A stretch of DNA of 64,000 bases from Sagittula stellata E-37 (GTDB lineage: Bacteria; Pseudomonadota; Alphaproteobacteria; Rhodobacterales; Rhodobacteraceae). Of this stretch, positions 2,821 through 24,026 are shown one piece after another. The notes beneath the pieces were generated by a model, which saw nothing but the letters and a program-made list of their open reading frames with translations, was not told the DNA's origin and ran no database searches. The position numbers and the translations under genes were made by a program. The first letter of the stretch is position 1, and each line of letters opens with the position of its first letter. The stretch covers positions 744,001 to 808,000 of the forward strand of contig NZ_CP155729.1 in NCBI RefSeq assembly GCF_039724765.1. The letters run 5' to 3'.

Positions 2821-2823
2821 CCC

Positions 2824-4832: not shown

Positions 4833-4865
4833 CACGCCGGTTTCACCCAGAGGGAGGAGACCCCG

Positions 4866-5882: not shown

Positions 5883-5888
5883 ACCGGA

Positions 5889-5916
5889 CCGGGGCGGGCA
5901 TCGCTGCCCGCCCCGG
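5889..5916 (+). other. Intercistronic hairpin between dctP and dctQ
   Basis: Perfect 12-bp stem CCGGGGCGGGCA / TGCCCGCCCCGG with a TCGC loop, starting 6 bases after the dctP stop and lacking a T-run. Such stems often protect the binding-protein mRNA or cut readthrough, giving more binding protein than permease. A hairpin sits in the same place in the second TRAP operon (20668-20689). Confidence 0.7.
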
Positions 5917-5940
5917 CACCTTGAAGCGCGGAGGAGAGAC

Positions 5941-7805: not shown

Positions 7806-7824
7806 CAGGGTGATCTGTCGTCCT

Positions 7825-7853
7825 GCGGGCCTTCGTTCATGCCGAGGGCCCGC
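7825..7853 (+). terminator. Possible terminator after the sugar-acid operon
   Basis: Inverted repeat GCGGGCC / GGCCCGC with a 15-base loop, starting 20 bases after the dctM stop and followed by GGTTTCG. The T-run is poor, so this is a weak candidate. The rest of the gap to the tRNA at 8046 shows no gene. Confidence 0.4.
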
Positions 7854-8045
7854 GGTTTCGTCATTGGTGGTCGAGGCGGCATCGGAGAGTTTTCACTGAC
7901 AGCGGCAGTGCGACGTAAACTCGAAAATGCCGGAAGACGTCGGGAAAGACCGTGATGTCGCAATTAATGCCGCGATACATGTGTGCACGAACAGCGGACG
8001 TTCCGCGCGCCTGCATGCGCCATGGCATCGTTGACTGAAATACAA

Positions 8046-8122
8046 TGGCGATCCCTGAAGGACTCGAACCCTCAACCTGCTGATTAGAAGTCAGCTGCTC
8101 TATCCAGTTGAGCTAAGGGACC
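8046..8122 (-). tRNA. tRNA-Arg (anticodon TCT)
   Basis: The complement folds as a complete cloverleaf. The acceptor stem is GGTCCCT with AGGGATC (one G-U pair). The D arm is GCTCAACTGGATAGAGC. The anticodon stem GCTGA/TCAGC holds loop CTTCTAA with anticodon TCT. The T arm contains GGTTCGAGTCC. The 3' CCA is encoded (8046-8048). It reads AGA codons. Confidence 0.95.
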
Positions 8123-8224
8123 GCTGCGACGTCTTTAATCCGATTGTGCAGGTAAACTCAAAGCGAAATCGGCATCGAGGTTGGCGACAGCGGACGTTGT
8201 ACATATTCCGGCCATCGGGGCAGG

Positions 8225-9457
8225 TCAGAAGGCGTGTAGTGTCGTGCGGGCGGGTTCTGTTCGGGCGACGACCTGGCCGTTCGAGATAACGGCCAGCCGG
8301 GCGGGGCGCAGCCGCAGGGCTTCGATTGGATCGGTCGCGTCGAGCACCACGAGCGACGCGCGCTTGCCGGCCTGAAGGCCGAAATCCAGCCCCATGATTT
8401 CCGCCGGTGTGTCGGTGACCATGGTGTAGGCCGCGCGCATCTGGTCGGGCGCGGTCATATGCGCCACGTGCAGCCCCATATGGGCGACGTCGAGCATGTC
8501 GCCCGATCCCAGCGGATACCACGGGTCCTTCACGCAGTCCTGCCCGAAGGCCACGGTGACGCCGGCGGCGCGCAGTTCTGGCACGCGGGTCAGGCCGCGC
8601 CGCTTGGGGTAAGTGTCCATGCGGCCCTGAAGGGTGATGTTGATCAGAGGATTAGGAATCGCTGCAACCTGCGCCTCCGCGATCAGTGGTATGAGCTTGG
8701 CAACGTAGTAGTTGTCCATGGAGTGCATGGAGGTCAGGTGGCTGCCTGCCGTGCGGCCCTGCAGGCCGAGACGTATGGTTTCCGCTGCCAGCGTCTCGAT
8801 ATGGCGGGAGAGGGGGTCGTCGGATTCGTCGCAATGCAGGTCGACACGCAGGCCGCGCTTGGCGGCGAGCGTGCAGGCGGCTGTGACGGAGGCCGCGCCA
8901 TCGGTCATGGTGCGTTCGAAATGCGGGATGCCGCCCACCACATCGACGCCCGCGTCCAGCGCCCGGACGACCTGATCCTCGGCGCCGGGCGTCCGATACC
9001 AGCCGTCCTGAGGGAAGGCGACCAGTTGCAGGTCGAGCACGTCCTTCACCGTCTCGCGGACCTCCAGCAGCGCCTCGACAGTATTAAACGTCTCGTCGGT
9101 GACGTCGACGTGGGATCGGATGGCGAGTACGCCTTTTCCGACGGCCTCACGGCAATAGCTCAGGGCGCGGGCGACGATGTCCTCCTTCGACTGGAGGCGC
9201 GTCAGGTCGCCCCAGAGGCCGATGCCTTCGAGCAATGTGCCGGACGCGTTCACCCGCGGCCGACCGTAGGACATTGTTGCGTCCATGTGGAAATGCACGT
9301 CGCAGAATGGGGCGGAGACCAGCTTGCCCGTGGCATCGATGACCTCGCCCGCCTCGGCGTCGATGCCCGGTTCGATGGCGGTGATGCGGTCGCCGGTGAT
9401 CGCAATGTCGGCCTGTGTGCCGTCCGGAAGGGTGCCGCCCCTGACGAGAATGTCCAT
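8225..9457 (-). CDS. Cytosine deaminase-like amidohydrolase
   Basis: Metal-dependent deaminase (410 aa) of the amidohydrolase superfamily, resembling E. coli CodA along its length. Metal ligands appear in HFHMD, in HCDES and in the SH after GRTAG; the catalytic Asp is in FGQDCVKDPWYPLG. VAFPQDG and LINITLQGRMDTYPKRRG match CodA closely. CodA has GHDD at the active-site Asp whereas this protein has GQDC, so creatinine or another cyclic amidine is also a possible substrate. The start follows AAGGAGAC. No cytosine permease is adjacent. A direct repeat lies just upstream. Confidence 0.8.
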   Translation of the reverse strand: MDILVRGGTLPDGTQADIAITGDRITAIEPGIDAEAGEVIDATGKLVSAPFCDVHFHMDATMSYGRPRVNASGTLLEGIGLWGDLTRLQSKEDIVARALSYCREAVGKGVLAIRSHVDVTDETFNTVEALLEVRETVKDVLDLQLVAFPQDGWYRTPGAEDQVVRALDAGVDVVGGIPHFERTMTDGAASVTAACTLAAKRGLRVDLHCDESDDPLSRHIETLAAETIRLGLQGRTAGSHLTSMHSMDNYYVAKLIPLIAEAQVAAIPNPLINITLQGRMDTYPKRRGLTRVPELRAAGVTVAFGQDCVKDPWYPLGSGDMLDVAHMGLHVAHMTAPDQMRAAYTMVTDTPAEIMGLDFGLQAGKRASLVVLDATDPIEALRLRPARLAVISNGQVVARTEPARTTLHAF

Positions 9458-10390: not shown

Positions 10391-11260
10391 TTAGCGCGTC
10401 GTGACCGTCGGGATGCGCGGCAGTTCGGCCCCGGGCTGCGACCGCGCGGCGACTGCCACCATCAATGCCTGCGCGAGGCACATCGGCGCCGCCAGTGAGC
10501 GGGAGAAGGTGTAGTCGTGCTCTGGCACCGCGAAGAGGAGCGTCGCTGGCTTGTTGAGCGGCGACAGCGTGCTGTCGGAAATGGCGATCACGGGGATACC
10601 CTTGCCGGCTGTCTCTTGCACGACGTTGACCACTTCGTTGGCGTAGAAGCGGAAGGCCACGGCGATCAGAAGATCCGCCTCCGACATGTTCCGCGCCACG
10701 TGCGTGGCCAGCCCACCCGCCGCATCCAGCAGCACGCAGGGCTTGCCCAGCATCGTCAGGATGTAGCGTAAAAGGACCACGACCGGTTCCGACCGAAGCT
10801 GGCCGATCAGATAGACGGTGCGGGCGCTGTCTATCATTTCGGCCGCGCGGGTCATGGCTTCCGGGTCGGTGCGGTCCAGCAGGTCCTGAAGGGAGGCAAT
10901 ATCGCGCAGCACAAGGTCATGCAGCGCATCGGGCGCCGTGCCGCCATGCTGGCGCAGATCGCCTTCCAACGCCTTCTTGCGCGCCTCGAAGCCCGGAGCG
11001 GCCGTGGAAAGGCGGCGTTGGAAGAGCGTCTGCAGGTCCTTGAAGCCGGAATAGCCCAAGGCCTGCGCGAACCGCACGAAGCTGGACGCGTGAATCCCGC
11101 ACTGGGCCGCGCTGGCGTTGACCGAGAGCACGGCCACCTCGTTGGGGTTCTGGGTCAGATACTCTGCGATCTGCTGGTAGGTCTTGCTCATACCGTCGAA
11201 ACGGTCGTGGATCAGGCGTATGAGCTCCTCGTAATCTGCCGGGGGCGCGGATGCCGTCAT
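10391..11260 (-). CDS. RpiR family transcriptional regulator
   Basis: Regulator of 289 aa with an N-terminal RpiR helix-turn-helix (about 10-85; SVNASAAQCGIHASSFVRFA) and a C-terminal SIS sugar-binding domain (about 125-265; VYLIGQLRSEPV and VIAISDSTLSPLN). ATG at 11260 overlaps the upstream dehydrogenase stop as ATGA, so it is the last gene of the leftward operon. In rhizobia the myo-inositol regulator IolR belongs to this family, which fits the nearby iolD. It probably senses a cyclitol or its phosphorylated product and acts on the divergent promoter at 14023-14119; that is inference. Confidence 0.85.
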   Translation of the reverse strand: MTASAPPADYEELIRLIHDRFDGMSKTYQQIAEYLTQNPNEVAVLSVNASAAQCGIHASSFVRFAQALGYSGFKDLQTLFQRRLSTAAPGFEARKKALEGDLRQHGGTAPDALHDLVLRDIASLQDLLDRTDPEAMTRAAEMIDSARTVYLIGQLRSEPVVVLLRYILTMLGKPCVLLDAAGGLATHVARNMSEADLLIAVAFRFYANEVVNVVQETAGKGIPVIAISDSTLSPLNKPATLLFAVPEHDYTFSRSLAAPMCLAQALMVAVAARSQPGAELPRIPTVTTR

Positions 11261-12219
11261 TGTGCGATCTGCACGTGGTTGACGATCAGCGCCGGGTCCA
11301 GTTTTCCGGCAAAGAAGTCGAGGACGTTCTGCGCGGACGCGACCGCCATGCGTTCTGCTGCGCCTTCGGTCACGCCCGCGATATGCGGCGAAAGGATCAC
11401 CTGGTCGAACCCTTTCAGGGGGTGGATCGCAGGCAGCGGCTCTGCCTCGAAGACATCGAGACCGGCGGCAGAGACCTTGCCCGACTTCAGGTGCTTTGCG
11501 AGTTCCCGTTCGTCCACGATGCCACCCCGGGCAGTGTTCACGATCACCACCCCGGGTTTCATCGCCTCGAACTCTGCCGCGCCGATCAGGGGGCGGTCGC
11601 CCTTGGGCGCGCTGACCGTGATCACGTCCGCCCAGCCCAGTGCCTCGCCCAGGTCTTCGAATGCGGGAATGCCGCCGTCCGGCCAGCCGTGGCGGTGCAG
11701 GTAGGGATCGTGCGCCCGGATGTTCATGCCGAAGCCCGACATCATCGTTGCGGTGTGCTGTCCGATGCGGCCAAACCCGAGTATCAGCAGGTTGCGGCCG
11801 CGAATGTCCTGTGACTCGAGTTGGTTGCGCCATCCCCAAGGTCCACGCCGCACCGCCACGTCCGCGCGCAAGGCCCGCTTGAACGCCGCGAGGATCAACA
11901 TGCAGGCATGTTCGGCAACCGAGGTGGAGTTCGCGTCGCCGCAGACGGCAAGCGCGATGCCCCGCGCATTGAGCGCCGCGACATCCACCGCGTCATAGCC
12001 GACCCCATGCCGGGATACGATTTTCAGCCGGTCCGCCCGGTCGATGGTCGGCGAGGTCAGAGCCTGCGTCCGGATCAGCAGGGCATCGGCCCCGGCGATA
12101 TGTGGGGTGTAGCTGTCTTCGGATATCTCGTCGATGTAGGTGGTCGTGATGTCCGGCGCGGCATCCAGAATGTCGCGCCCGAACTGGTGCAGCTTTCCGG
12201 CGACAAGCACATGGGGCAT
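11257..12219 (-). CDS. D-isomer-specific 2-hydroxyacid dehydrogenase (phosphoglycerate-dehydrogenase-like)
   Basis: NAD-dependent oxidoreductase of 320 aa. Visible are the cofactor loop GFGRIG, the catalytic Arg in NTARGGIVD, the Glu in LDVFEAEP and the His in SPHIAG, so the full catalytic set is present, unlike the paralogue at 2824. VSRHGVGYDAVD is typical of the family. It starts inside the aldolase stop (TGATG, one base shared) and overlaps the RpiR gene by four bases. It may reduce or oxidise a hydroxy/keto acid formed by the aldolase step; the substrate is unknown. Confidence 0.82.
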   Translation of the reverse strand: MPHVLVAGKLHQFGRDILDAAPDITTTYIDEISEDSYTPHIAGADALLIRTQALTSPTIDRADRLKIVSRHGVGYDAVDVAALNARGIALAVCGDANSTSVAEHACMLILAAFKRALRADVAVRRGPWGWRNQLESQDIRGRNLLILGFGRIGQHTATMMSGFGMNIRAHDPYLHRHGWPDGGIPAFEDLGEALGWADVITVSAPKGDRPLIGAAEFEAMKPGVVIVNTARGGIVDERELAKHLKSGKVSAAGLDVFEAEPLPAIHPLKGFDQVILSPHIAGVTEGAAERMAVASAQNVLDFFAGKLDPALIVNHVQIAQ

Positions 12220-13019
12220 CAGTAGGCTCCTTCGTTGCCATCGGCGCCCGCGCCGGTCAGGTCGCGGAACCGTTTCACGGAGGCGCTGGCCGCGGCGGCA
12301 AGCAGCCGCGAATCTCCGCCGACCGTGGTCAGGTTGTAGCCCCAACCGATGGCCTGCGCCGCGTAGTCCGGTGTCCCGCAATGCAGGCAGGCCTTGATGC
12401 CGTTCGCCTTGCAGACCTGCGCGATGCGCTTGATCAGGTCGACCATCTCGGGCTCCCGACGGTCGAAGCCGGGGGGTAGTCGCCCGCCCTGTGTCCCGAG
12501 CGTCAGGTCCGCAGGTCCCACGTAGATCCCGTCGAGCCCGGGGGTGGCGGCGATCTCTTCGAGGTTGTCGACGCCGCCCTGCGTCTCGATCATTGCCAGG
12601 GCCAGCACCTCGTCGTTCATTTGCGTGCCGTAGCCGGGCATTGCGAAGCCCACGCGCGTCGGGCCGAAGCTGCGCTGGCCCTGCGGCGGATAGCGCATGT
12701 AGGAAACAAACTGCTCCGCCTCCGCGCGGGAATTGATCATCGGGCAGATGATGCCCATGGCGCCGGCGTCCAGCGCCTTCATGATCGACGCCGGATCGAG
12801 CCATGGCACACGCGCCATCAGGGTCACGCCGCTGGCCCGCATCGCCTGCAGCATCGCCAGCATGTCGGCGTAGTCGAGCGCGCCGTGCTGCCAGTCGACA
12901 CTGACGGAGTCGTAACCCTGCGCGGCCATGATCTCGGCCGTGAACGGGTTACCGATGGAGCACCAGCCGTTCATCGCCGGTTTGCCTTCGGCCCACAGCG
13001 CCTTGAGTTTGTTCTTCAT
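12219..13019 (-). CDS. HpcH/HpaI family class II aldolase
   Basis: Metal-dependent pyruvate aldolase (266 aa) related to 4-hydroxy-2-oxoheptanedioate and 2-keto-3-deoxy-rhamnonate aldolases, cleaving a hydroxy-keto acid to pyruvate and an aldehyde. Visible are VDWQHG (catalytic His), the RVP substrate loop, RYPPQGQRSFGPTR, a metal Glu in IETQGGV and a metal Asp in YVGPADLTLG. Second gene of the leftward operon, directly after the Gfo/Idh dehydrogenase. In this context it may cleave the chain produced after cyclitol ring opening, replacing the usual IolC/IolJ steps; that is inference. Confidence 0.85.
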   Translation of the reverse strand: MKNKLKALWAEGKPAMNGWCSIGNPFTAEIMAAQGYDSVSVDWQHGALDYADMLAMLQAMRASGVTLMARVPWLDPASIMKALDAGAMGIICPMINSRAEAEQFVSYMRYPPQGQRSFGPTRVGFAMPGYGTQMNDEVLALAMIETQGGVDNLEEIAATPGLDGIYVGPADLTLGTQGGRLPPGFDRREPEMVDLIKRIAQVCKANGIKACLHCGTPDYAAQAIGWGYNLTTVGGDSRLLAAAASASVKRFRDLTGAGADGNEGAY

Positions 13020-13020
13020 G

Positions 13021-14022
13021 TCAGACGTCCTTTACCGCGATGGTCCGGGCTTCGGCGATCGACCGGAAGCACGCTTCGGCCAGGGCCAGAGCCTTCACGC
13101 CGTCCTCAAGCGACGCTTCGGGCACGGCGGTCCCGGCGCAGGCGTCGACGAAGTTGTCGATCTCGGCGACAAAAGCCGCCCGGTAACGCTCGATGAAGAA
13201 GTGCTGGAGTGGTGCCGCGTGCCGGGTGAAGCCCTGGCCCCAGACCTCTGCGGCGTTTTCCCGGTGGTTGTCGGACAGTGCCATGCCGCCCGATCCGAAC
13301 AGTTCGACCCTCTGGTCGTAGCCATAGACCGCTTCGCGCGAATTGGTGATGATCGCCTGCTTGCCGGAAGCGGTGGTCAGGATGACCGTCACCGTGTCGT
13401 AGTCGCCGCACCGTTCCATCAAGGCGGGCGCGATCAGGCGCGCGCCGGTGGCGGTGACATGCGTCACCTCCTCGTCCAGCATGAAGCGGGCAAGGTCGAG
13501 GTCGTGGATCGTCATGTCGCGGAAGATGCCGCCGGAGGTCTCGATGTACCCGTCCGGCGCCATCCCCGGATCGCGAGAAGTGATGACCACCTGATGCAGC
13601 TCGCCCAGCTGGCCATTGCGGTGGGCGTCGCGTGCGGCGCGGTGGCCGGGATCGAAGCGGCGGCAGAAACCGATCATGATCGGCGCGCTGGCCTCCTTCA
13701 CGTCCTCCGCGCATTGCCGCGCGCGGGCAAAGTCGAGGTCCACGGGTTTTTCGCACAGGACGGCCTTGTTGGCGGCGACGGCGGCCTTGATGAAGTCGAC
13801 GTGGGTCGCGGTCGGAGTGGCGATCAGGACGGCATCTGCGTCGGAAGCGAAGGCGGCCTCGGGCGAGTCGTACTGGAGCACGCCCAGCCTGACGGCAACC
13901 TCTTCGGAGCTGGGCGAATGGACGTCGAAGACGCCGGCAAGCTTAGCGCGCGGGTGGGCCGCGATGATCTCGGCGTGCATGCGTCCGATGCGACCGCAGC
14001 CGAGCAATGCGATTCTGGTCAT
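13021..14022 (-). CDS. Gfo/Idh/MocA family oxidoreductase, inositol 2-dehydrogenase-like
   Basis: NAD(P)-dependent dehydrogenase of 333 aa. The Rossmann loop is LGCGRIGRMHAE; CEKPVDLD has the conserved EKP lysine; the catalytic segment IHDLDLARFML holds the Asp and His typical of IolG-type enzymes. First gene of a leftward four-gene operon whose members abut or overlap, and divergent from iolD across 97 bases. The partner genes make oxidation of myo-inositol or another cyclitol the likely role. Scyllo- or chiro-inositol dehydrogenase are alternatives. Confidence 0.82.
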   Translation of the reverse strand: MTRIALLGCGRIGRMHAEIIAAHPRAKLAGVFDVHSPSSEEVAVRLGVLQYDSPEAAFASDADAVLIATPTATHVDFIKAAVAANKAVLCEKPVDLDFARARQCAEDVKEASAPIMIGFCRRFDPGHRAARDAHRNGQLGELHQVVITSRDPGMAPDGYIETSGGIFRDMTIHDLDLARFMLDEEVTHVTATGARLIAPALMERCGDYDTVTVILTTASGKQAIITNSREAVYGYDQRVELFGSGGMALSDNHRENAAEVWGQGFTRHAAPLQHFFIERYRAAFVAEIDNFVDACAGTAVPEASLEDGVKALALAEACFRSIAEARTIAVKDV

Positions 14023-14041
14023 GGGGTCCTCCCGAAGTTTC

Positions 14042-14083
14042 TGCAATGATCGTTGCAATGACGTTGCATTGTCAATGATCGTT
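14042..14083. promoter_or_regulatory. Overlapping inverted and direct repeats in the divergent iol-like promoter
   Basis: TGCAA-N6-TTGCA at 14042-14057 and TGCAA-N5-TTGCA at 14054-14068 share a half-site. CAATGATCGTT occurs at 14044-14054 and again at 14073-14083. This density of repeats between divergent operons marks a likely operator for the RpiR regulator; the assignment to that protein is inferred. Confidence 0.6.
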
Positions 14084-14119
14084 CCGTAGGTTTTTCCCCA
14101 AAGAGGAGGAGGAATCGGT

Positions 14120-15976
14120 ATGACGGCAACAGTCCGCCTGACCATGGCGCAGGCGCTGGTGCGCTGGCTTTGCGCCCAACACACCGAGATCGACGGAGAG
14201 CGCGTTCCGCTGTTCGCGGGCGTCTTCGGGATCTTCGGCCACGGCAACGTGACCTGTCTGTCCGAGGCGCTGGAACAGGTGCAGGACAGGCTGCCAACAT
14301 GGCGCGGCCAGAACGAGCAGTCCATGGCCCTTGCGGCGGTGGGCTTTGCCAAGGCGAAACGCCGCCGACAGATCATGGTCGCGACCTCTTCGGTCGGGCC
14401 CGGGGCGACCAACATGATCACTGCGGCGGGGGTGGCCCATGCGAACCGGCTGCCCGTGCTGCTGCTGTCGGGGGACACCTTCGTCAACCGTCTGCCCGAT
14501 CCGGTGTTGCAGCAGGTGGAGCATTACGGCAGCCCGTCGACCACGGTGAACGACGGCTTCCGGGCAGTGTCGCGGTTCTGGGACCGGATCGTACATCCGG
14601 CGCAGATCCTGTCGTCTCTGCCGCAGGCGGTCACGACGATGCTGGACCCGGCCGACTGCGGCCCGGCTTTCATCGGCCTGCCGCAGGACATACAGGAAAT
14701 CGCCTACGACTACCCCGAGGCCTTCTTTGCCGAGAAGGTCTGGACCATCCCGCGCCCCCGTCCCGCAAGGTCGGAGGTCGCAGCGGCGGTGGCGTTGCTA
14801 AAAAGCGCGAAACGCCCGCTGATCATCTCGGGCGGTGGCGTGCGTTACTCCGGCGCGGGCGAGGCGCTGGCCGACTTCGCCGTGCGCCGCGGCATCCCGA
14901 TGACGGAAACCATCGCCGGCAAAGGCGCCGTCGTGCACGATCACCCGGCCTATACCGGCGCCATGGGGATCGAGGGGACGGACGCCTCGAAGGAACTGGC
15001 CGAGACGGCGGACGTGGTGATCGCGATAGGCACACGGATGCAGGACTTCACCACCGGGTCGTGGACGACTTTCGCGCCGGACGCCAAGTTCCTGAACATC
15101 AACGCCGCGCGTTTCGATGCGTCGAAGCACTTTGCCCAGCCGGTCGTGGGCGACGCGCTGGAGTGCATCACCGAACTGGACGAGGCGCTGGGGGACTGGA
15201 CCTGCGATCCGGCGCAGATGGCGCGCGCGCAGGAACTGTATGCCGAGTGGAACCTTGCGCTGGACGAGGGGCAGAAGCCAACCAACGCGGCGGTGCCCTC
15301 TTACGCTCAGGTGATCGGCGTCGTGAATCGCAAGGCCTCGCCCGACGACACCATGGTGACCGCGGCGGGTGGTCTGCCGGGCGAGACGGCCAAGAACTGG
15401 CGGGTGAAGGCGCCCCACACCTACGATCTGGAGTTCGGTTTTTCCTGCATGGGATACGAGATCGCGGGCGGTTGGGGCCATGCCATGGCAAAGGAAGGCA
15501 AAGGTGTGCCGATCGTCATGGTCGGCGACGGGTCCTACCTCATGATGAACTCGGACATCTACTCGACGGTTTTGACCGGTCACAAGATGATCGTGGTGGT
15601 CTGCGACAACGGCGGGTTCGGCGTCATCAACCGGCTTCAGACCGGCATGGGCGTGCCCGGCTTCAACAACCTGCTGAAGGACGCGCGGGTGCAGAACCGG
15701 GACGCGCCACCACACGTCGACTTTGCCGCCCACGCGCGGGCGATGGGGGCAGAAGCGCGGTTCTGCGAAAGCCTGACCGACCTGGAGACCGCGATGGATT
15801 GGGCGCAGACCACTGACCGTACCACGGTGCTGGTGATCGAGACGGACGCCCATGTCTGGACCGACGGCGGCGCCGATTGGTACGTGGGCGTGCCGGAAAT
15901 CAACGAACGGGAAAGCGTCCGCAAGGCGCGGGACGGACAGGAAGCATTGCGCCGCAAACAGCGGCAGGGGGTATGA
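14120..15976 (+). CDS. iolD: 3D-(3,5/4)-trihydroxycyclohexane-1,2-dione hydrolase
   Basis: Thiamine-diphosphate enzyme of 618 aa that opens the cyclohexane ring in inositol catabolism, giving 5-deoxy-glucuronate. The N-terminal PYR domain has GHGNV and QNEQSMA with the catalytic Glu, and TSSVGPGATNM. The middle domain follows (about 200-340). The C-terminal PP domain carries the ThDP motif VGDGSYLMM...CDNGGF (about 471-500). MTDGGADWYVG-like spacing near the end also matches IolD. The start follows AGAGGAGGA. Standard partners iolB, iolC and iolE are absent from the window, so the pathway may differ downstream. Confidence 0.88.
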   Translation: MTATVRLTMAQALVRWLCAQHTEIDGERVPLFAGVFGIFGHGNVTCLSEALEQVQDRLPTWRGQNEQSMALAAVGFAKAKRRRQIMVATSSVGPGATNMITAAGVAHANRLPVLLLSGDTFVNRLPDPVLQQVEHYGSPSTTVNDGFRAVSRFWDRIVHPAQILSSLPQAVTTMLDPADCGPAFIGLPQDIQEIAYDYPEAFFAEKVWTIPRPRPARSEVAAAVALLKSAKRPLIISGGGVRYSGAGEALADFAVRRGIPMTETIAGKGAVVHDHPAYTGAMGIEGTDASKELAETADVVIAIGTRMQDFTTGSWTTFAPDAKFLNINAARFDASKHFAQPVVGDALECITELDEALGDWTCDPAQMARAQELYAEWNLALDEGQKPTNAAVPSYAQVIGVVNRKASPDDTMVTAAGGLPGETAKNWRVKAPHTYDLEFGFSCMGYEIAGGWGHAMAKEGKGVPIVMVGDGSYLMMNSDIYSTVLTGHKMIVVVCDNGGFGVINRLQTGMGVPGFNNLLKDARVQNRDAPPHVDFAAHARAMGAEARFCESLTDLETAMDWAQTTDRTTVLVIETDAHVWTDGGADWYVGVPEINERESVRKARDGQEALRRKQRQGV

Positions 15977-16794
15977 GGATGAACCGAATAGATGGAAAGA
16001 TCGCCGTCGTCACTGGCGGCACGCAGGGGCTGGGCGCCGCCATCGCACGCCTGTTTGCCGAAGCGGGCGCGGCGGGCATCGCGATTGTCGGACGAGGCGT
16101 GGACAAGGGCCTGAAAGTGGCCGCCTCGATCACCGAGGCGACCGGCGTCCCGGTAGAGATGATCGCCGCCGATCTCGCCAGCGTCGAGGACGTGCAGGCC
16201 ATCATGCCCGCGGTCGACAAGGCATTTGGCCGGGTCGACATCCTCGTGAACGCGGCCGGGCTGACGGATCGGGGCAACCTGCTGAACACGACACCCGAGA
16301 TGTTCGACCGCATGTTCGCGATCAACACCCGTGCGCCGTTCTTCCTGATGCAGGATGCGGTCAAGCTGATGGGCCGGGAGGGGGTTAAGGGCACGATGGT
16401 CAACATCGGGTCCACGTCCGAGCACGCGGGTCAGCCGTTCATCGCGCCCTATTGCGCCTCGAAGGCGGCGCTGGCGACGCTGACGCGGAACTCCGGCTTT
16501 GCCCTGATGCGCAATGGCATTCGGGTGAACCAGCTCGATATCGGGTGGATGAACTCCGACAACGAACGCGCGCTTCAGGAGTCCGAGCAGGGCGATGCCG
16601 GCTTCATCGACCGTGTGGCGGCGACGATGCCTTTCGGGCGGCTGCTCGAACCGGCAGAAGTGGCCAGGGCCGTGCTCTGGATGGCGTCGGACGACAGCGG
16701 CATGATGACGGGTGCGGTGATCCACTTCGACCAGTCGGTCTGGGGCGGCTACGACGGGCAGGCCCCTGCCCCGGCAGAGCCGTTGACGGCGTGA
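15973..16794 (+). CDS. SDR family oxidoreductase
   Basis: Classical short-chain dehydrogenase (273 aa, or 271 from the ATG at 15979). Visible are TGGTQGLG, NAAGLTD and the catalytic pair IGSTSEHAGQ...YCASK. The ATG at 15973 overlaps the iolD stop as ATGA, which favours it, and translational coupling is likely. By position it probably oxidises or reduces a ring hydroxyl of the cyclitol substrate or of the IolD product. Exact substrate unknown. A hairpin at 16802 follows. Confidence 0.82.
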   Translation: MRMNRIDGKIAVVTGGTQGLGAAIARLFAEAGAAGIAIVGRGVDKGLKVAASITEATGVPVEMIAADLASVEDVQAIMPAVDKAFGRVDILVNAAGLTDRGNLLNTTPEMFDRMFAINTRAPFFLMQDAVKLMGREGVKGTMVNIGSTSEHAGQPFIAPYCASKAALATLTRNSGFALMRNGIRVNQLDIGWMNSDNERALQESEQGDAGFIDRVAATMPFGRLLEPAEVARAVLWMASDDSGMMTGAVIHFDQSVWGGYDGQAPAPAEPLTA

Positions 16795-16801
16795 CCTTTG
16801 G

Positions 16802-16828
16802 CCGGGGCGGCGCTAGGCTCCGCCCCGG
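16802..16828 (+). terminator. Hairpin after the iolD-SDR pair
   Basis: Nine-bp stem CCGGGGCGG / CCGCCCCGG with a nine-base loop, 8 bases after the SDR stop and ahead of the LysR gene. No T-run follows, so it may attenuate rather than terminate. Confidence 0.45.
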
Positions 16829-16848
16829 GAACGTAAGGGGAAGTCGTC

Positions 16849-17760
16849 TTGCTGAACAGACTGAGGATGCGGCATGTCCGCTGCTTCCTGACCATCGCGC
16901 GCTGCGGGTCGATGACCGCGGCGGCGAGAGAGATGAACTCCTCCCAACCCGCGGTGTCGCGGTCGCTGGCCGAACTGGAGAAGCTGGTCGGCCAGCCCCT
17001 GTTCGAACGTGGCGGGCGAGGTCTGACGCTGACGGAGGCGGGCGAACGACTGCGCCGCCACCTGGACCCGGCAGTCTCGCAGATGGAAGAGGGCGTGCGG
17101 CTGGCGGGTGGGACGGCGGCGGTGCCGCGCGTTTCCGTGGGCATGCTGCCGAACGTGGCGCGAACCTTGGCAATGCGGTCGTCGGTCATGTTCAAGGAGG
17201 ATGCCCCCGACGTCGATCTGGAGCTGCACTGGGCCAACGTGTCGGAGCTGATCGTGCGCCTGAACCGGGGCGAGATCGACATGCTGCTGGGCCGTCTCCT
17301 TTCGCTCGAACACATGGACGGCGTCAGTTTCGAACACCTGTATCCCGAAAACATCGTCTTTGCCGTCCACCACACGCACCCTTTCGCCGCGCGGCCCGAT
17401 GACGTGACGCTGTCAGAAGTCGGGGCCGAACTGGTCGTGGTGCCGCTTGCCGGGACGATCATCCGCCGCGAGCTGGACAAGTTCATGACCGCGCGCGGCC
17501 TGGCCCGGTTCCGCCGGCAGATCGAGACGGTGTCCTTCGAATTCACCCGCAGTTTCCTGCGCGAGACGCCCTCTGTCGCGGCGATCCCGCTTGGCGCGAT
17601 CCGGCACGAACTGGCGGAGGGCGAGCTGGTGAAACTGGGCCTGTCCGGCGAGGAACTTGTCGGGTCCGTCGGTATCTCCTTCCGTTCCGGACGGGCCCTG
17701 TCGCCGGAGGCCGCACGCTTTGCCGAAGTGGTGCGGGTGGTGGCGCGGGACTACGCCTGA
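16849..17760 (+). CDS. LysR family transcriptional regulator (PcaQ/GbpR-like)
   Basis: Regulator of 303 aa. The N-terminal helix-turn-helix (about 6-65) reads MRHVRCFLTIARCGSMTAAA and SQPAVSRSLAELE; the rest is the periplasmic-binding-like effector domain. I take the TTG at 16849 as start; the ATG at 16867 would leave only two residues before the first conserved helix. It sits between the iolD pair and the sulfatase-TRAP operon in the same direction. A palindrome at 17773-17788 ahead of the sulfatase gene looks like its binding site. The effector is unknown. Confidence 0.85.
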   Translation: MLNRLRMRHVRCFLTIARCGSMTAAAREMNSSQPAVSRSLAELEKLVGQPLFERGGRGLTLTEAGERLRRHLDPAVSQMEEGVRLAGGTAAVPRVSVGMLPNVARTLAMRSSVMFKEDAPDVDLELHWANVSELIVRLNRGEIDMLLGRLLSLEHMDGVSFEHLYPENIVFAVHHTHPFAARPDDVTLSEVGAELVVVPLAGTIIRRELDKFMTARGLARFRRQIETVSFEFTRSFLRETPSVAAIPLGAIRHELAEGELVKLGLSGEELVGSVGISFRSGRALSPEAARFAEVVRVVARDYA

Positions 17761-17772
17761 CAGCAGCAAGCC

Positions 17773-17788
17773 ATACCCGATCCGGTAT
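17773..17788. promoter_or_regulatory. LysR-type operator candidate overlapping a -10 box
   Basis: Inverted repeat ATACC-N6-GGTAT, just after the LysR gene and 100 bases before the sulfatase gene. A TATACT -10-like hexamer (17786-17791) overlaps its right half. PcaQ-type LysR proteins bind similar ATAACC/GGTTAT repeats. Function is inferred from spacing and sequence. Confidence 0.5.
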
Positions 17789-17887
17789 ACTAAAAGCGTA
17801 GAATCGATTTCATGTTTGCGCCTCCCGCCGCTAGCTTGCAGCAACGGCGCCGTCAGAGCGCGACAATCCAAGGGGGGAACGGCGCGC

Positions 17888-19576
17888 ATGGCGGCTCCGA
17901 AGAATATCCTGTTTATCATGTTCGATCAGCTCCGCTGGGATTACCTGAGCTGTTACGGCCATCCGCATCTGAAGACACCGAACCTGGACCGGCTGGCGTC
18001 GAAGGGGATGCGCTTCGACCGCTGCACGATCCAGTCGCCGCTGTGCGGACCGTCGCGGATGTCCACCTACACCGGGCGCTACGTCCATTCGCATGGGGCA
18101 TCCTGGAACAACGTGCCCCTGAAGGTCGGGGAGCTGACGATGGGCGACCATCTGCGCGATCTGGGAATGGGCTGCTGGCTGGTGGGCAAGACCCATATGG
18201 CGGCGGACGCCGAGGGGATGCGCAGGCTCGGGCTGGAACAGGACAGCGTGATCGGTGCGCGGGTCGGCGAATGCGGCTTCGACATCTTCGAGCGTGACGA
18301 CGGCATGCGCCCCGAGGGGCCGGACGGGCTCTATGACGAGGGCGGCGCGCTGAAGTACAACGAATACCTGCGCGGCAAGGGCTACGAGAGCGACAATCCC
18401 TGGCACGACTATGCCAATTCCGGACTGGACGACGACGGCAACGTGTTGTCGGGCTGGTTTCTCGAAAACTCCGACCGGCCCGCGAACATCCGTGAAGACG
18501 ACAGCGAAACCCCCTATCTGACGCGCCGCGGGATCGAGTTCATCGAGCAGGCGGAGGGACCATGGTGCTGTCACCTGTCCTACATCAAGCCGCACTGGCC
18601 CTATATCGTGCCGGAACCCTACGCCTCGATGTACGGACCGCAGGACTTCCTGCCGCGCGTCGCTTCGGAAACCGAGCGCGAGACGGATCACCCTGTTTTC
18701 AAGGGGTTCCAGAATGCACCCATCGGTAAGGCGCTGGCCCGCGACGACGTGCGCGAGAAGGTGCTGCGCGCCTACATGGGGCTCATCAAGCAGTGCGACG
18801 ACCAGATGGGCGTGCTGTTCGACTTCCTCGAACGCACCGGCCGAATGGAGGACACGCTCATTGTCGTGACGTCCGATCATGGCGACTTCATGGGGGATCA
18901 CTGGATGGGCGAAAAGACCTTCTTCCACGAGGCGTCTGTCAAGGTGCCGCTGATCGTCTACGACCCCTCGCCGGAGGCGGATGCCACGCGCGGTACGACC
19001 TCCGACGCGCTGGTCGAATGCATCGACTTCCTGCCCACCTTCGTGGAGGTGGCGGGCGGCGATCCAGCGAAACTCGACCACATTCTCGAAGGCCAGTCGC
19101 TTTTGCCGATGCTCCGAGGGGGCGCGGCGCCAGAGCGCGAGGTGGTGGTCTGCGAATACGACTACTCCAGCAGCCCGCTGGCCGGTCGGCTGGGTCTGCA
19201 CCCGGATCAGTCGCGCATGTTCATGGTCGCCAACCAAGACTGGAAGATGATCCATTTCGAAAGTGGCCACCGTCCCATGCTTTTCGACCTGAGGAACGAC
19301 CCGCAGGAACTGGAGGATCTGGGCGCGAGTGCCGCCCATGCGGATGTCAGGGCGCGGATGTACGACCACCTGCACGTCTGGGCACGGCGCCCGGCGGCGC
19401 GGACGACCATGTCGAACGAAGCTTTCGTGAAGGAGCGGACCTTGGGCGCAGGCCGGACCGGGGTACTGATCGGGATCGTGGAGGAGACCGAGCTGCCGCA
19501 GGAACTGACGGCCAAGTACACCGGGCGCAAGGCGAAGGACATGCGCGGGACGACGCCGGGCACACCCGGAGAGTGA
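17888..19576 (+). CDS. Sulfatase-superfamily hydrolase, phosphonate monoester hydrolase-like
   Basis: Type I sulfatase-fold hydrolase of 562 aa that splits sulfate esters or phosphodi-/phosphonate monoesters. The formylglycine motif is LCGPSRMS with Cys53. Metal ligands appear in FDQLRWD near the N-terminus and in TSDHGDFMGDH late in the protein. Overall layout matches rhizobial and Burkholderia phosphonate monoester hydrolases better than arylsulfatases. No signal peptide, so the substrate is hydrolysed in the cytoplasm after uptake, presumably by the adjacent TRAP system. I chose ATG 17888 (after GGGGGAACGGC) because upstream in-frame sequence is not protein-like. Confidence 0.82.
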   Translation: MAAPKNILFIMFDQLRWDYLSCYGHPHLKTPNLDRLASKGMRFDRCTIQSPLCGPSRMSTYTGRYVHSHGASWNNVPLKVGELTMGDHLRDLGMGCWLVGKTHMAADAEGMRRLGLEQDSVIGARVGECGFDIFERDDGMRPEGPDGLYDEGGALKYNEYLRGKGYESDNPWHDYANSGLDDDGNVLSGWFLENSDRPANIREDDSETPYLTRRGIEFIEQAEGPWCCHLSYIKPHWPYIVPEPYASMYGPQDFLPRVASETERETDHPVFKGFQNAPIGKALARDDVREKVLRAYMGLIKQCDDQMGVLFDFLERTGRMEDTLIVVTSDHGDFMGDHWMGEKTFFHEASVKVPLIVYDPSPEADATRGTTSDALVECIDFLPTFVEVAGGDPAKLDHILEGQSLLPMLRGGAAPEREVVVCEYDYSSSPLAGRLGLHPDQSRMFMVANQDWKMIHFESGHRPMLFDLRNDPQELEDLGASAAHADVRARMYDHLHVWARRPAARTTMSNEAFVKERTLGAGRTGVLIGIVEETELPQELTAKYTGRKAKDMRGTTPGTPGE

Positions 19577-19607
19577 CGAAGGGAACCATGTCTTGGGGAG
19601 GAGAACC

Positions 19608-20660
19608 ATGAAGACATTCTTGAAGACGGCCGCCGTTGTAGGCGCCCTTGCGGTGACAGGTGTCATGGCGCAGGCGCAGGCCAACCTGAGCGCCGAGACA
19701 TCGAGTGCAGGCAACTCGCCGCACCTGATGATGATGCACCTTGCCGATGTGCTTGCTCGCGAGGGCGTGGCCAACGTGCAGGTGCAGGAAGGCCAGACCG
19801 CCACCAACTCCATGGTCAACGTGGCCGAGGGCAAGTCCGATATGGTGACGGCGCCCACCATCCTCTTCTTCCTGCTGGAAAACGGGCGCGGGCCGTTCTC
19901 CAACATCGGTGAGGGCGGCAAGGATCTTGTGCAGAACATCCGCGCCATCGCGCCGTTCAATGCGGGCGCCTACGGGCTGTTCGCGCCGGTGGCGTCGAAC
20001 ATCACCTCTTATCAGGACCTCAAGGGACGCACGGTCTGGAACGGTCCGCCGCGCGGCGCGGCCCTGACGCTTGGGCGTCAGACGATCCTGCTGGGGTCGG
20101 GCGGCTTCAAGGACGGCGAGGACTACACCGGTTACCAGACCAACTGGGGGCAACTGCCGACCGCGCTGGTCGACGGCTCGGCCGAAGCCTTCCTTGTGCC
20201 GATCACCTTCCCCTCGGATCGCGTGGTCATGGCGCTGTCAGCCGGTGACGTGAACATCGTCTCCTTCCCGAAGGACATCTGGGAAAGCGAAGGGATGGAG
20301 AAGTTCCTGTCGGCCCCGGGCAACAGCCCGGTCGAGGTCAAGATCGCGGACATGGGCTATGGCCCGGACCAGGGCGTGAACGTGATTTCCGAGGATGACA
20401 CCTTCCGCTCGCCGGGCGTGCCCTTCGCGGCCTACGTGCGCGCCGATCTGTCCGACGAACTGGTCAAAGAGGTCACGGCGGCTTACATCGCCTCGCTCCC
20501 GGAGCTGAAAAAGCGCGCGCCCTATGCCGGCAACGTCAATTTCGACGTGCTGGATCAACGAACCACCGGTTTCTGCGGAGCCTTGACCCTGAAGTACCAC
20601 CCCGGCGCGATCGCTGCATGGGAAGAGGCCGGGTACGACGTTCCGGACTGCGCGAAGTGA
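19608..20660 (+). CDS. TAXI family TRAP transporter solute-binding protein
   Basis: Periplasmic binding protein of 350 aa with a signal peptide ending at about AQAQA (residue 24). Features typical of TAXI proteins are SAGNSPHL near the N-terminus, GRTVWNGPPRGAA in the middle, and the end YHPGAIAAWEEAGY. The start is fixed by GGGGAGGAG. It follows the sulfatase by 31 bases and precedes a fused 4TM-12TM permease, the usual TAXI partner. A hairpin lies between them. The ligand is unknown; the neighbours suggest an esterified polyol. Confidence 0.85.
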   Translation: MKTFLKTAAVVGALAVTGVMAQAQANLSAETSSAGNSPHLMMMHLADVLAREGVANVQVQEGQTATNSMVNVAEGKSDMVTAPTILFFLLENGRGPFSNIGEGGKDLVQNIRAIAPFNAGAYGLFAPVASNITSYQDLKGRTVWNGPPRGAALTLGRQTILLGSGGFKDGEDYTGYQTNWGQLPTALVDGSAEAFLVPITFPSDRVVMALSAGDVNIVSFPKDIWESEGMEKFLSAPGNSPVEVKIADMGYGPDQGVNVISEDDTFRSPGVPFAAYVRADLSDELVKEVTAAYIASLPELKKRAPYAGNVNFDVLDQRTTGFCGALTLKYHPGAIAAWEEAGYDVPDCAK

Positions 20661-20667
20661 CCTGACA

Positions 20668-20689
20668 GGGCGGGCTGCCGGGCCCGCCC
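20668..20689 (+). other. Intercistronic hairpin between TAXI binding protein and permease
   Basis: Eight-bp stem GGGCGGGC / GCCCGCCC with a six-base loop, 7 bases after the binding-protein stop. It matches the position of the hairpin at 5889-5916 in the other TRAP operon and may set the ratio of binding protein to permease. Confidence 0.65.
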
Positions 20690-20710
20690 CCTTTGCCGGG
20701 AGATCCTGAG

Positions 20711-23050
20711 ATGTCGGACAAGATGCCGTTCCTGAAGCGTGCCGCGCAGGCACTTGGGCTGATCCTCGTGACCATCGGGATGCTCAACACCATTCCGTCC
20801 ATCCCCGGCCTGGATGCCTGGGCGCAGGATGTGACCGGCAACCCGGCCTTCGCGATCCGGAGATTCCCCTACGAATGGCTCTATCCCATCGCCTTCGTGC
20901 TGATGATGCTGACCGTGGCCTGCAACCATTCGTTTTGGGCGGACTGGACGGTTCGGGGGTTTGGCCCGGGGCGCCGTCGTTTCGGCGCCTTCATGGACAT
21001 CCTTTTGGTGACGATGGCCGTAGCGGTTTCTGCGGCATACCTGATCGAGATCGACTCGGTGTGCTTGATCGACCAATTCACCGGCGAACGCGCCGAACTG
21101 ATCGCCCGTGCCCTGCTGGAAGAGAAGGAATTCGCCGAACTCTATGGGCTGCCCGCGCCGACATCGGTGGACGATCCTGCCTGTATCCGCAACCTTGGCG
21201 TCTGGATCTTCGCCGTGGTGGGGGCGGGCATCGCCGTCTTCCTGGGCTACAACGTGCGGGTCTGGGGTCTACCGCTGGTCGCTGTGGCGATCCTGATCTT
21301 TGCCTACACGCTCATTACCGTGGGGATCTGGTACTTCTTCGGCTCCGAGGACATGAACAAGTACCTCATCACCAAACTGGGTGGCGAGCCGCGTTCGCTG
21401 ATGGACGGCCGTCCGAATGTCGAGGATATCCTCGTCAACAATGCGCAGGGTCTGCTGGGCCGGTTCATGGGCATCCTGCTGTCGACGGTTTTCCCCTACA
21501 TCGTGCTCGGGTCGCTCTTCGGGATCTCGGCCGGGGGCAAGTCGCTGATCAAGCTGGCGTTCCTCTGGACACGGCGGCTGAAGGGCGGCCCGGCCCACGC
21601 CGCTATCGTGTCGAGCGCGCTGTTCGGCACGATTTCCGGCGGGCCGGTGGTGAACGTTCTGTCGACCGGCGTCCTGACCATCCCCATGATGCTGCGGCGC
21701 GGGTTTTCGAAGACCTTCGCGGGCGGTGTCGAAGCCGCCGCATCGTCCGGAGGGCAGATCATGCCACCGGTCATGGGCGTGGCAGCCTTCGTGCTGTCAG
21801 CCATGACGGTGGTGCCCTATCGCGAGGTTATCGTCGCGGCGGTCATCCCTGCGATTGCCTACTTCGGCTGCCTCTTCCTGACGGTACACTTCCAGGCCCG
21901 CAAACAGGGCATAGAGGCGGTCGGCGACAAGACACCCGACATGATTCTGAATGGCCAGGACCGGCTGAACCTGCTGATGATCCTGTTGCCGATCCTGCTG
22001 ATCCTCATGCTGCTCATCACCCCGAAAGAGGCGGTGGGCTGCGGCATCTTCGGCACGCTGCTCGGCGTCGAGCGCAGCGGCGAGGGGGCCGCCTGCGTGG
22101 CCGAGAGCCTGCCTTTCCTGCTCCAGATCGTCCAGAACTCTGCAGGGGATGCCGGTTCGGCGGGCTGGTGGGCCGTGCTGCTGCTTGTCGCGCTGTTCTG
22201 CCTGGACCCCGAATTCCGCAAGGCACCGCGCGCGCTGGTCGGGGCCTTCGCGGACGCGGGGGTTCTGATCGCGACCCTCTACCTGATGTTCCTGTCGGTC
22301 TCTGTCATCGATTTCTGCCTGAACTTCACCGGACTGTCGGGATTTGTCGCGCGGGATGTGCTGGGTCTGTTGCGCGCCTTCGGGGCCGAGGTACAGGGTG
22401 GTGGCATCTTCCTGTTCGCAGCGCTCTTCGTGACGATGCTGCTGGCAATCCTCCTGGGCATGGGGATGCCGACCGTGCCGGCCTACGTCAACGTGGCCCT
22501 CTTGATGGGGCCTCTGGTCGTCGGGCTGGGCATCGCGAACTTCACGGCGCACATGTTCATCTTCTTCTTCGCGGTGGCGAGCGCGATCACACCGCCGGTC
22601 GCGGTCGCGGCCTTCGCTGCGGCGTCGATCACCAAGGCGGACGCCATGGCCACCGGCTTTGCCGCTGTGCGCGCCGGTGTGGTGATGTTCGTTTTGCCGT
22701 TCGTCTTCGCCTTCTACCCCGAACTCCTGCTGATCGATCCGGCCAAGCTGGATCCCACGGCCACGGCCGGGGCGCAGGTGTACATCGAGGGCTATGGGCC
22801 GGGAATCGACTGGTTGGGCCTGGCGTCTGTCGGCGCGCGCCTCGCGCTGGGGCTTTATCTGATGGCAGGGGCGCTGGCACGCTATGACATGCGGGCGATG
22901 GGAGCGCCCGAGGTCATCCTGCGCCTCGGTCTGGCGGTCGCCGTGATGATGAAGGCGGCAGTGATCTTCCTTCCGGCGCTCGGGCTGGCGGCGGTCTACC
23001 TGCTGTGGCACGGCAGCTCGGCCATGCGTCGCGGGCCGGTTCGGACCTGA
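20711..23050 (+). CDS. TRAP transporter permease, fused small and large subunits (4TM-12TM)
   Basis: Integral membrane protein of 779 aa in which the DctQ-like and DctM-like parts are joined, as usual for TAXI systems. The N-terminal part (about 1-210) has several helices; the DctM-like part has SSALFGTISGGPVVNVLSTG and SSGGQIMPPVMG, the motifs expected for the transport core. A roughly 130-residue insert in the middle contains cysteines and two helices. ATG 20711 follows GGGAGATCC; an upstream TTG at 20693 is less likely. Last gene of the sulfatase-TRAP operon. Confidence 0.87.
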   Translation: MSDKMPFLKRAAQALGLILVTIGMLNTIPSIPGLDAWAQDVTGNPAFAIRRFPYEWLYPIAFVLMMLTVACNHSFWADWTVRGFGPGRRRFGAFMDILLVTMAVAVSAAYLIEIDSVCLIDQFTGERAELIARALLEEKEFAELYGLPAPTSVDDPACIRNLGVWIFAVVGAGIAVFLGYNVRVWGLPLVAVAILIFAYTLITVGIWYFFGSEDMNKYLITKLGGEPRSLMDGRPNVEDILVNNAQGLLGRFMGILLSTVFPYIVLGSLFGISAGGKSLIKLAFLWTRRLKGGPAHAAIVSSALFGTISGGPVVNVLSTGVLTIPMMLRRGFSKTFAGGVEAAASSGGQIMPPVMGVAAFVLSAMTVVPYREVIVAAVIPAIAYFGCLFLTVHFQARKQGIEAVGDKTPDMILNGQDRLNLLMILLPILLILMLLITPKEAVGCGIFGTLLGVERSGEGAACVAESLPFLLQIVQNSAGDAGSAGWWAVLLLVALFCLDPEFRKAPRALVGAFADAGVLIATLYLMFLSVSVIDFCLNFTGLSGFVARDVLGLLRAFGAEVQGGGIFLFAALFVTMLLAILLGMGMPTVPAYVNVALLMGPLVVGLGIANFTAHMFIFFFAVASAITPPVAVAAFAAASITKADAMATGFAAVRAGVVMFVLPFVFAFYPELLLIDPAKLDPTATAGAQVYIEGYGPGIDWLGLASVGARLALGLYLMAGALARYDMRAMGAPEVILRLGLAVAVMMKAAVIFLPALGLAAVYLLWHGSSAMRRGPVRT

Positions 23051-23132: not shown

Positions 23133-24026
23133 ATGCACGACGTCGTCATCCTTTCCGACGAGAGGTTGGTCGGGTCCCTTGTCGCGGCCCAGGGCGACAC
23201 ATGGCGCGGCCAGAGGATTCAGCCGTTGGCCGCCTCTGGCGCGGACAACGCGATGTTTCGGCTTGGCGACAAATGGGCTGTCCGGTTGCCGCGGCGCCCC
23301 GAAGTCGTGCAGATGCTCGAAACGGAAGCCAAGTGGCTGCCGCGTCTCGCTGATCTGCCGCTGTCCGTGCCGGTGCCTCGCGTGCTGGGCGCGCCGACGC
23401 AGCAGTTCAACTGGCCATTCACCATCGTCGACTGGATAGACGGCGTAGAGGCCGACGAGACCGAGGTTTCGGATATGGCCGAAGCGGTTCAGAGCCTTGC
23501 GGCCTTTCTCAAGGCGCTGTGGAAGAAATCGACCCGCGATGCGCCGCTGGCCGGAGAGGCAAACCATTATCGCGGCGTCAACCTGAAGGAGGTCACGCAG
23601 CAGGTACTTACGTGTTTCTCGAAGCTCGACGACGAACTCGAACCGGAAGTCGCGCGAGAGGCATGGCTCAGCGCCCTGGATGCCAGCCCGGTGCGCAAGC
23701 CGCGCTGGCTGCATGGCGATCTGCGCGCATCGAACATGATTGCCCGCGATGGTGAGCTGGTCGGCGTGATCGACTGGGGCCGGGCGGCGGTGGGCGATCC
23801 GGCGGCGGACGTTGCCGTCGCGTGGCGCTGGGTGCCGGAGTGGGAGATGTCCAATTTCCAGGAGGCGCTTGGCGCAAGCGACGATCTCTGGCGGCGTGCG
23901 CGCGGATGGGCGCTTTACGATGCGGTTGTAATCCTCGCCCATTACAAGGATCAGCCGGGGTTCGAAGCCATATGCGATGAGAGCCGCTGCGTCTTTGGCC
24001 GGCTTGGACTGGGTGCCCCCTGCTGA
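23133..24026 (+). CDS. Aminoglycoside phosphotransferase-family (APH) kinase-like protein
   Basis: Protein of 297 aa with the APH/choline-kinase fold. HGDLRASNMIA (about 193-203) is the catalytic loop and GVIDWGRAAVGDPA (about 211-224) holds the metal-binding Asp. NAMFRLGDKWAVRLPRR near the N-terminus is the ATP-binding region. I chose ATG 23133; the longer frame from 23070 has an unlikely leader. It stands alone between the TRAP operon and an unknown gene. It may phosphorylate a small metabolite; antibiotic resistance is not implied by sequence alone. Confidence 0.8.
   Translation: MHDVVILSDERLVGSLVAAQGDTWRGQRIQPLAASGADNAMFRLGDKWAVRLPRRPEVVQMLETEAKWLPRLADLPLSVPVPRVLGAPTQQFNWPFTIVDWIDGVEADETEVSDMAEAVQSLAAFLKALWKKSTRDAPLAGEANHYRGVNLKEVTQQVLTCFSKLDDELEPEVAREAWLSALDASPVRKPRWLHGDLRASNMIARDGELVGVIDWGRAAVGDPAADVAVAWRWVPEWEMSNFQEALGASDDLWRRARGWALYDAVVILAHYKDQPGFEAICDESRCVFGRLGLGAPC

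Follow-up and report, generated by a model that had tools for sequence, protein, structure and literature searches.

The stretch of DNA analysed here, hereafter the window, comprises 64,000 nucleotides of Sagittula stellata E-37 (contig NZ_CP155729.1, positions 744,001 to 808,000, forward strand), and the catabolic genes between its positions 10391 and 23050 probably belong to two independent units. The first is best read as a reduced form of a second inositol-type module that is conserved in other genomes, for which the name iol2 is coined here, and the second as a separate LysR-linked sulfatase/TAXI-TRAP unit. A first-pass annotation had joined all of these genes into one pathway for an esterified cyclitol. 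The gene types it named, namely an RpiR regulator, a D-2-hydroxyacid dehydrogenase (HADH), an HpaI aldolase, IolG, IolD, an SDR, a sulfatase/phosphonate monoester hydrolase (PMH), a TAXI protein and a TRAP permease, were all confirmed by Pfam and NCBIfam profile scans, and the proposed cyclitol-type catabolic module of IolD, IolG, SDR, RpiR, HpaI and HADH does recur in other genomes.

The iol2 unit (10391-16794) is divergently organised, with iolG2, hpaI, the HADH gene and rpiR on the minus strand and iolD2 and the SDR gene on the plus strand. IolD2 (14120-15976) is a paralogous trihydroxycyclohexane-1,2-dione hydrolase, a thiamine diphosphate enzyme scoring 822.7 bits against TIGR04377 (cut-off 715), and its gene abuts that of the SDR oxidoreductase (15979-16794; NCBIfam PRK06198 type, 388.6 bits, cut-off 240). 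The minus strand encodes IolG2 (13021-14022), an inositol 2-dehydrogenase-type member of the Gfo/Idh/MocA family (TIGR04380, 378.2 bits, cut-off 355), the HpcH/HpaI class II aldolase (12219-13019; Pfam), HADH (11257-12219; Pfam 2-Hacid_dh and 2-Hacid_dh_C) and an RpiR-family regulator with an SIS domain (10391-11260; Pfam HTH_6 and SIS). These four genes lie end to end or with overlaps of a few bases, and rpiR, the last of the operon, has its start overlapping the HADH stop. Both operons share a 97-base gap at 14023-14119.

To place this unit, a genome collection was scanned with the window IolD, which confirmed 201 relatives; 80 loci were kept. A set of 27 other IolD2 loci was picked by IolD grouping (17 of the 18 named loci, plus 10 from the 14 further family genomes with IolD2). 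L023 was dropped, its IolD being identical to that of L151, and G019, G068, G090 and G102 lay outside the sample. Presence at the 27 loci was judged by identity limits set in this analysis, and several loci (L028, L032, L152 and L159 among them) are truncated by the end of a contig, so absences are upper bounds. The recurring set consists of RpiR, a Gfo/Idh protein (GfoA), HADH, HpaI, a succinate-semialdehyde-type aldehyde dehydrogenase (ALDH) and IolG2, followed by the divergent IolD2, a second IolE (IolE2) and the SDR; some loci add a TIM-barrel protein and another Gfo/Idh (GfoB). SDR was present at 25 of the 27 loci, IolE2 at 24, HADH, HpaI and GfoA at 22 each, RpiR at 20, ALDH at 19, IolG2 at 17, the TIM-barrel protein at 11 and GfoB at 10. 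The window fits this pattern, having IolD2 divergent from an HpaI and HADH operon together with SDR and RpiR. GfoA, ALDH and IolE2 are missing from it, so that it falls short of a full iol2, which includes the last two. Four annotated plasmid records, from Paracoccus alcaliphilus, Rhizobium leguminosarum, Qingshengfaniella alkalisoli and Acidiphilium multivorum, show a similar order with gaps, the plasmid gene tables being incomplete. Among plasmid records, an IolD match at E<=1e-100 was found in 192, 23 of them at 60-80% identity. The iol2 module is thus a real, recurrent gene set, and it has its own conserved palindrome.

That palindrome lies in the gap between the divergent operons, where a candidate RpiR operator cluster occupies 14043-14083 and includes GCAATGATCGTTGC (14043-14056), GCAATGACGTTGC (14055-14067) and CAATGATCGTT (14073-14083), the latter two being partial sites picked out by eye. 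In 22 of the 28 loci, counting the window, the core pattern GCAA-N6-TTGC precedes the start of the IolD2 protein match by 77-108 bases; the same loci have 38 other sites in their 575 kb. The tighter pattern GCAAYRWTYRTTGC has a single place in the 5.29 Mb, five-contig genome of the strain, which is the iolG2-iolD2 gap. It was found in 26 of the 202 loci fetched, some of which are overlapping copies of one place, and each of the 26 contains an iol2 module or at least the beginning of the iolD2 of one. Neither the sulfatase loci (L140-L149 and L196-L198) nor the canonical inositol cluster L011 has it. In relatives, further sites stand near rpiR or ABC transporter genes. RpiR probably acts on the iolG2/iolD2 divergent promoter through a palindromic operator. 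RpiR-type regulators are found in proteobacterial iol clusters, a point of likeness, whereas the rhizobial IolR motif is GGAA-N6-TTCC, unlike the iol2 palindrome. That motif was tried as a candidate and rejected: L011 has no match to it, and the only match in the window is at chance level and falls outside the module.

The gene data also show IolD2 to be a paralogue. A profile search of the strain's own genome located canonical iolB, iolE, iolD and an iolC-iolJ fusion, in which IolC is joined to the aldolase part, together at G000:C1:1336372-1343363. The canonical IolD there scores 902.9 bits versus about 822.4-822.7 for IolD2, the second copy in the same genome, and for each of iolB, iolE and iolC a single match exceeds the cut-off, all three at C1 1.336-1.343 Mb. 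The first-pass annotation was therefore right that iolB, iolC and iolE are missing from the window cluster, which does not hold the canonical genes together, but they are present elsewhere in the genome. It had also named, among the findings that would refute its model, a complete iol cluster elsewhere that fully explains inositol use; a canonical cluster does exist, yet it leaves the retention of a second, distinct IolD unexplained. In a tree of 92 IolD sequences, the 31 canonical rows form one branch with support of 100 and IolD2 lies outside it; this is a quick tree with SH-aLRT support only, and canonical rows were chosen by gene neighbourhood. Within the module group, the window IolD2 clusters first with the Maliponia and Tropicibacter sequences and then with the one from Alexandriicola; one Bartonella IolD of different gene context also falls inside this group. 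Among 120 family genomes the IolD2 type is sharply separated, with 15 at an identity of at least 62% and next matches at 56% or lower. Compared with the canonical myo-inositol pathway (IolG, IolE, IolD, IolB, IolC, IolJ, IolA), iol2 is alike in its IolG and IolD, which exceed the curated cut-offs, and in the IolE homologue at most of its loci. It differs in that IolD2 is not of the canonical group and that HpaI, HADH and ALDH stand beside it in place of IolB, IolC and IolJ.

Two side observations concern these clusters. A third IolD type (e.g. L038, L045, L056, L066, L071, L075 and L081) occurs with Gfo/Idh genes and with distant IolE-, IolC- or IolB-like genes about 28-35% identical to the canonical ones, and its loci may represent a further parallel inositol-type module. 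In L011, the gene of a 425-amino-acid protein that matches no NCBIfam model at 1e-10 lies between canonical iolB and iolE (7232-8509, minus strand), and it adjoins iolB in some relatives too.

The second unit (16849-23050, plus strand) starts 3' of a G+C-rich hairpin with 12-nt arms at 16802-16828, whose role as a terminator is uncertain because no T run follows. Its first gene, between the SDR and sulfatase genes and unmentioned in the first-pass annotation, encodes a LysR-family regulator (16849-17760; Pfam). The arylsulfatase/PMH-type hydrolase (17888-19576; Pfam Sulfatase) contains C-x-P-x-R, the formylglycine-type motif, as SPLCGPSRMSTYTGR (CGPSR). Its protein begins MAAPKNILFIMF with no obvious signal peptide, so the cytoplasmic location proposed earlier is reasonable. 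Against the PehA model NF045661 it scores 283.4 bits, below the cut-off of 900. Its nearest solved relatives are dimeric arylsulfatases of Silicibacter pomeroyi, with 894 bits to 4upl (presumably SpAS2) and 602 bits to 4upi (SpAS1), both nearly full length. According to PMC5870055, SpAS1 and SpAS2 formed no choline from choline sulfate. The TAXI-type TRAP solute-binding protein (19608-20660) is over cut-off for Pfam NMT1_3 and below it for TIGR02122 (50.7 bits, cut-off 84.35), and has no solved relative at E<=0.01. Its gene adjoins that of the fused TRAP permease (20711-23050), which exceeds the cut-off of TIGR02123 (323.9 bits, cut-off 320.65).

A single route in which TAXI-TRAP imports an esterified cyclitol, the sulfatase hydrolyses it and IolG, IolD and HpaI degrade the product can be argued from the adjacency of the units, from the shared strand of iolD2, SDR, LysR, sulfatase, TAXI and TRAP, and from the annotated genes flanking the window copy, which include no ABC sugar transporter; several other iol2 loci adjoin sugar-type ABC transporter genes. 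However, a search for the gene set in other genomes recovered iol2 without its neighbours: at the identity limits used, LysR, sulfatase, TAXI and TRAP are at none of the 27 other IolD2 loci. Of the 120 family genomes, 50 contain a match to the sulfatase at E<=1e-60, and 17 (own included) reach at least 65% identity. Ten of the 16 other close-sulfatase family loci were examined at full width, and the order LysR-sulfatase-TAXI-TRAP of the window was found in three (L140-L142), with no LysR-TAXI-TRAP neighbours in the remaining seven and iol2 genes at none of the ten. The seven sulfatase-only loci give no clue to the substrate because just two neighbour families recur, each in two loci. Of three plasmid sulfatase loci, one (a Pseudosulfitobacter plasmid) has the four-gene unit and two have the sulfatase without TAXI-TRAP; LysR is in the same position there and in L140-L142.

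Co-occurrence points the same way. Of the 120 genomes, 15 have IolD2 and 17 the close sulfatase, but the strain's own is the only one with both; IolD2 coincides with the looser sulfatase set (50 of 120) in four genomes. This is no association rather than avoidance, because neither figure differs from chance (p 0.69 for the close set, 0.27 for the looser one). Further, iolB is present in 14 of the 50 genomes with the looser sulfatase set versus 37 of the 70 without a sulfatase (p 0.009). With its own LysR, a hairpin between the units and the module palindrome not found in its operon, the sulfatase/TAXI-TRAP unit, which also occurs on its own, is best read as a separate, LysR-linked unit with its own importer. 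The esterified-cyclitol model was accordingly rejected on neighbourhood, co-occurrence and operator evidence, and it keeps only a very slim probability. As a separate observation, L072 (Octadecabacter ascidiaceicola) has, around 11822, a 56% identical sulfatase some kilobases from a third-type IolD, the only one of such closeness among the 80 IolD loci compared.

What the iol2 module might do is suggested by its aldolase. The nearest solved relative of HpaI is 6r62, the hydroxyketoacid aldolase SwHKA of Sphingomonas wittichii, and the SwHKA active-site residues W19, D42, H45, R70, E145 and D171 are kept in all 15 module HpaIs aligned (window included). All 15 differ from SwHKA in having His213 at the place of a Phe (residue 211 in our numbering). 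GarL, the 2-dehydro-3-deoxyglucarate aldolase, and the HpaI of 4-hydroxyphenylacetate degradation share the class II fold and reaction type, but the window HpaI is far under both equivalog cut-offs (132 of 406.75 and 152.5 of 368.8, respectively). The Phe in question is probably F210 of PMC10099721, which describes F210 as contacting C3 of hydroxypyruvate and hydroxypyruvate as bound and reportedly converted by SwHKA. The nearest solved chains of HADH are a phosphoglycerate dehydrogenase and then a glyoxylate reductase. HpaI is hence proposed as the retro-aldolase of the module, and HADH as a hydroxypyruvate or 2-hydroxyacid dehydrogenase. An SwHKA-like HpaI in the company of ALDH and a 2-hydroxyacid dehydrogenase suggests that the IolD product is oxidised and then split into hydroxypyruvate and malonate semialdehyde.

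In a full iol2 module, IolG2 and the other Gfo/Idh enzymes would oxidise an inositol-type cyclitol, IolE2 would dehydrate the inosose, and IolD2 would open the resulting 1,2-dione to a 5-deoxyhexuronate. ALDH would then convert this to a 5-deoxyhexarate and SDR or HADH would oxidise the latter to a 2-keto acid, which HpaI would cleave to hydroxypyruvate and malonate semialdehyde, with HADH reducing hydroxypyruvate to glycerate. Here the substrate, every reaction after IolD2 and the assignment of dehydrogenases to steps are what we infer from gene content. Full iol2 could therefore be a kinase-free inositol pathway that runs through 5-deoxyhexarate and HpaI cleavage, bypasses IolB, IolC and IolJ, is plasmid-borne in alpha- and gammaproteobacteria and survives as a trimmed copy in the present strain; we put this forward tentatively, as a proposal with somewhat less than even chances. 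No description of the iol2 module or of a deoxyhexarate route was found in the open-licence PMC literature searched, in line with the first-pass annotation, which knew of no described pathway with this set, though a description elsewhere is possible.

Several observations weigh against these readings. GCAA-N6-TTGC is missing upstream of iolD2 in 6 of the 28 loci, and GCAAYRWTYRTTGC is absent from some modules, e.g. those of Erwinia/Pantoea and Acidiphilium. Nor is HpaI confined to the module: scoring of 7998 candidates gave 6314 homologues at E<=1e-40, including a Phaeobacter inhibens protein with 80% identity. Moreover, identity of the window HpaI to those of L020-L022 is just 63-67%, against 85-87% for the IolD2 proteins. 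The succinate-semialdehyde-dehydrogenase-like ALDH could instead act on malonate semialdehyde. The best ALDH match in the strain's own genome is 40% identical and the genome has a single IolE; lacking ALDH and IolE2, the window cluster therefore cannot run the full route alone. Finally, 13 of the 15 family genomes that have IolD2 also have iolB, versus 38 of the 105 without IolD2 (Fisher p 3.8e-4), and iolB is over cut-off in 27 of the 29 module genomes searched (14 family genomes and 15 of the 18 named loci, without L023, L028 and L032). This co-occurrence is compatible both with a side branch into IolB/IolC and with a self-standing route.

Such a branch, with iol2 as a front end that converts another inositol isomer to 5-deoxyglucuronate or an epimer for canonical IolB, IolC and IolJ to finish, and with HpaI, HADH and ALDH handling a by-product, is possible but less likely than not. 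Besides the iolB co-occurrence, it would account for iolC-J being over cut-off in 26 of the 29 module genomes (27 at E<=1e-30), for iolC and iolB lying directly behind the module on the P. alcaliphilus plasmid, and for the four IolE2-less copies (window, L035, L024 and L154) all residing in genomes with iolB and iolC-J. The good conservation of HpaI and HADH across loci argues against it, as do G094 and G109, the module genomes in which neither an iolB over cut-off nor an iolC-J match at E<=1e-30 was found and which both keep IolE2, ALDH and HpaI. G094 is rated 100% complete in five contigs, and its best iolB match is weak (25 bits, below cut-off). G109 is fragmented (97% complete, 200 contigs), and its locus lacks HADH and GfoA. 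Numbers are small, but the distribution of iolE2, iolB and iolC-J fits replaceable upstream and downstream steps.

The four IolE2-less copies, all of which keep IolD2 and SDR, raise the further idea that they serve growth on a deoxyinositol (quercitol), for which no dehydratase is needed: by our own stoichiometric reasoning, two oxidations would give C6H8O5, the formula of the IolD substrate, directly. This is highly improbable, given that canonical IolE is present in the strain's genome and in that of L154, that the losses of IolE2 are dispersed over the tree and resemble redundancy, and that no paper pairing quercitol with iolD stood among the open-licence PMC matches listed. The missing ALDH, GfoA and IolE2 could also mark the window copy as a decaying, non-functional remnant; this is unlikely, as the six genes that remain are all open and closely spaced, with the HpaI residues and operator kept. 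On our reading of a reduced iol2 copy beside an independent sulfatase unit, the window copy, which lacks these three genes, probably depends on canonical IolE, and its product may pass to IolB/IolC.

The surroundings contain other gene groups. Upstream, a catabolic-looking plus-strand run (860-7805) encodes an enolase-superfamily enzyme, an SDR, a 2-hydroxyacid dehydrogenase and a zinc alcohol dehydrogenase, then a DctP-DctQ-DctM TRAP transporter, and an amidohydrolase gene (Pfam Amidohydro_3; 8225-9457, minus strand) lies between the DctPQM genes and rpiR. Downstream, 3' of the TRAP permease, is an APH-fold phosphotransferase (23133-24026, plus strand), unmentioned in the first-pass annotation and under the cut-off of every NCBIfam family scored; it was found neither at the 27 other IolD2 loci nor by the sulfatase in L140-L142. 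A CheB-CheR two-domain protein (24998-27505, plus strand) begins an unrelated region.

The existence of a second module would affect how inositol use is read from genomes. One survey (PMC9430895) calls an iol cluster present when at least three of the four core genes iolBCDE are found. If iol2 is such a parallel module, with an IolD, an aldolase and a regulator of its own, some genomes scored as non-users could degrade inositols, and part of the annotated iolD genes would be paralogues with another substrate or downstream route. G094, which is near-complete and has the full module but neither an iolB over cut-off nor iolC-J, allows a direct test of the question.

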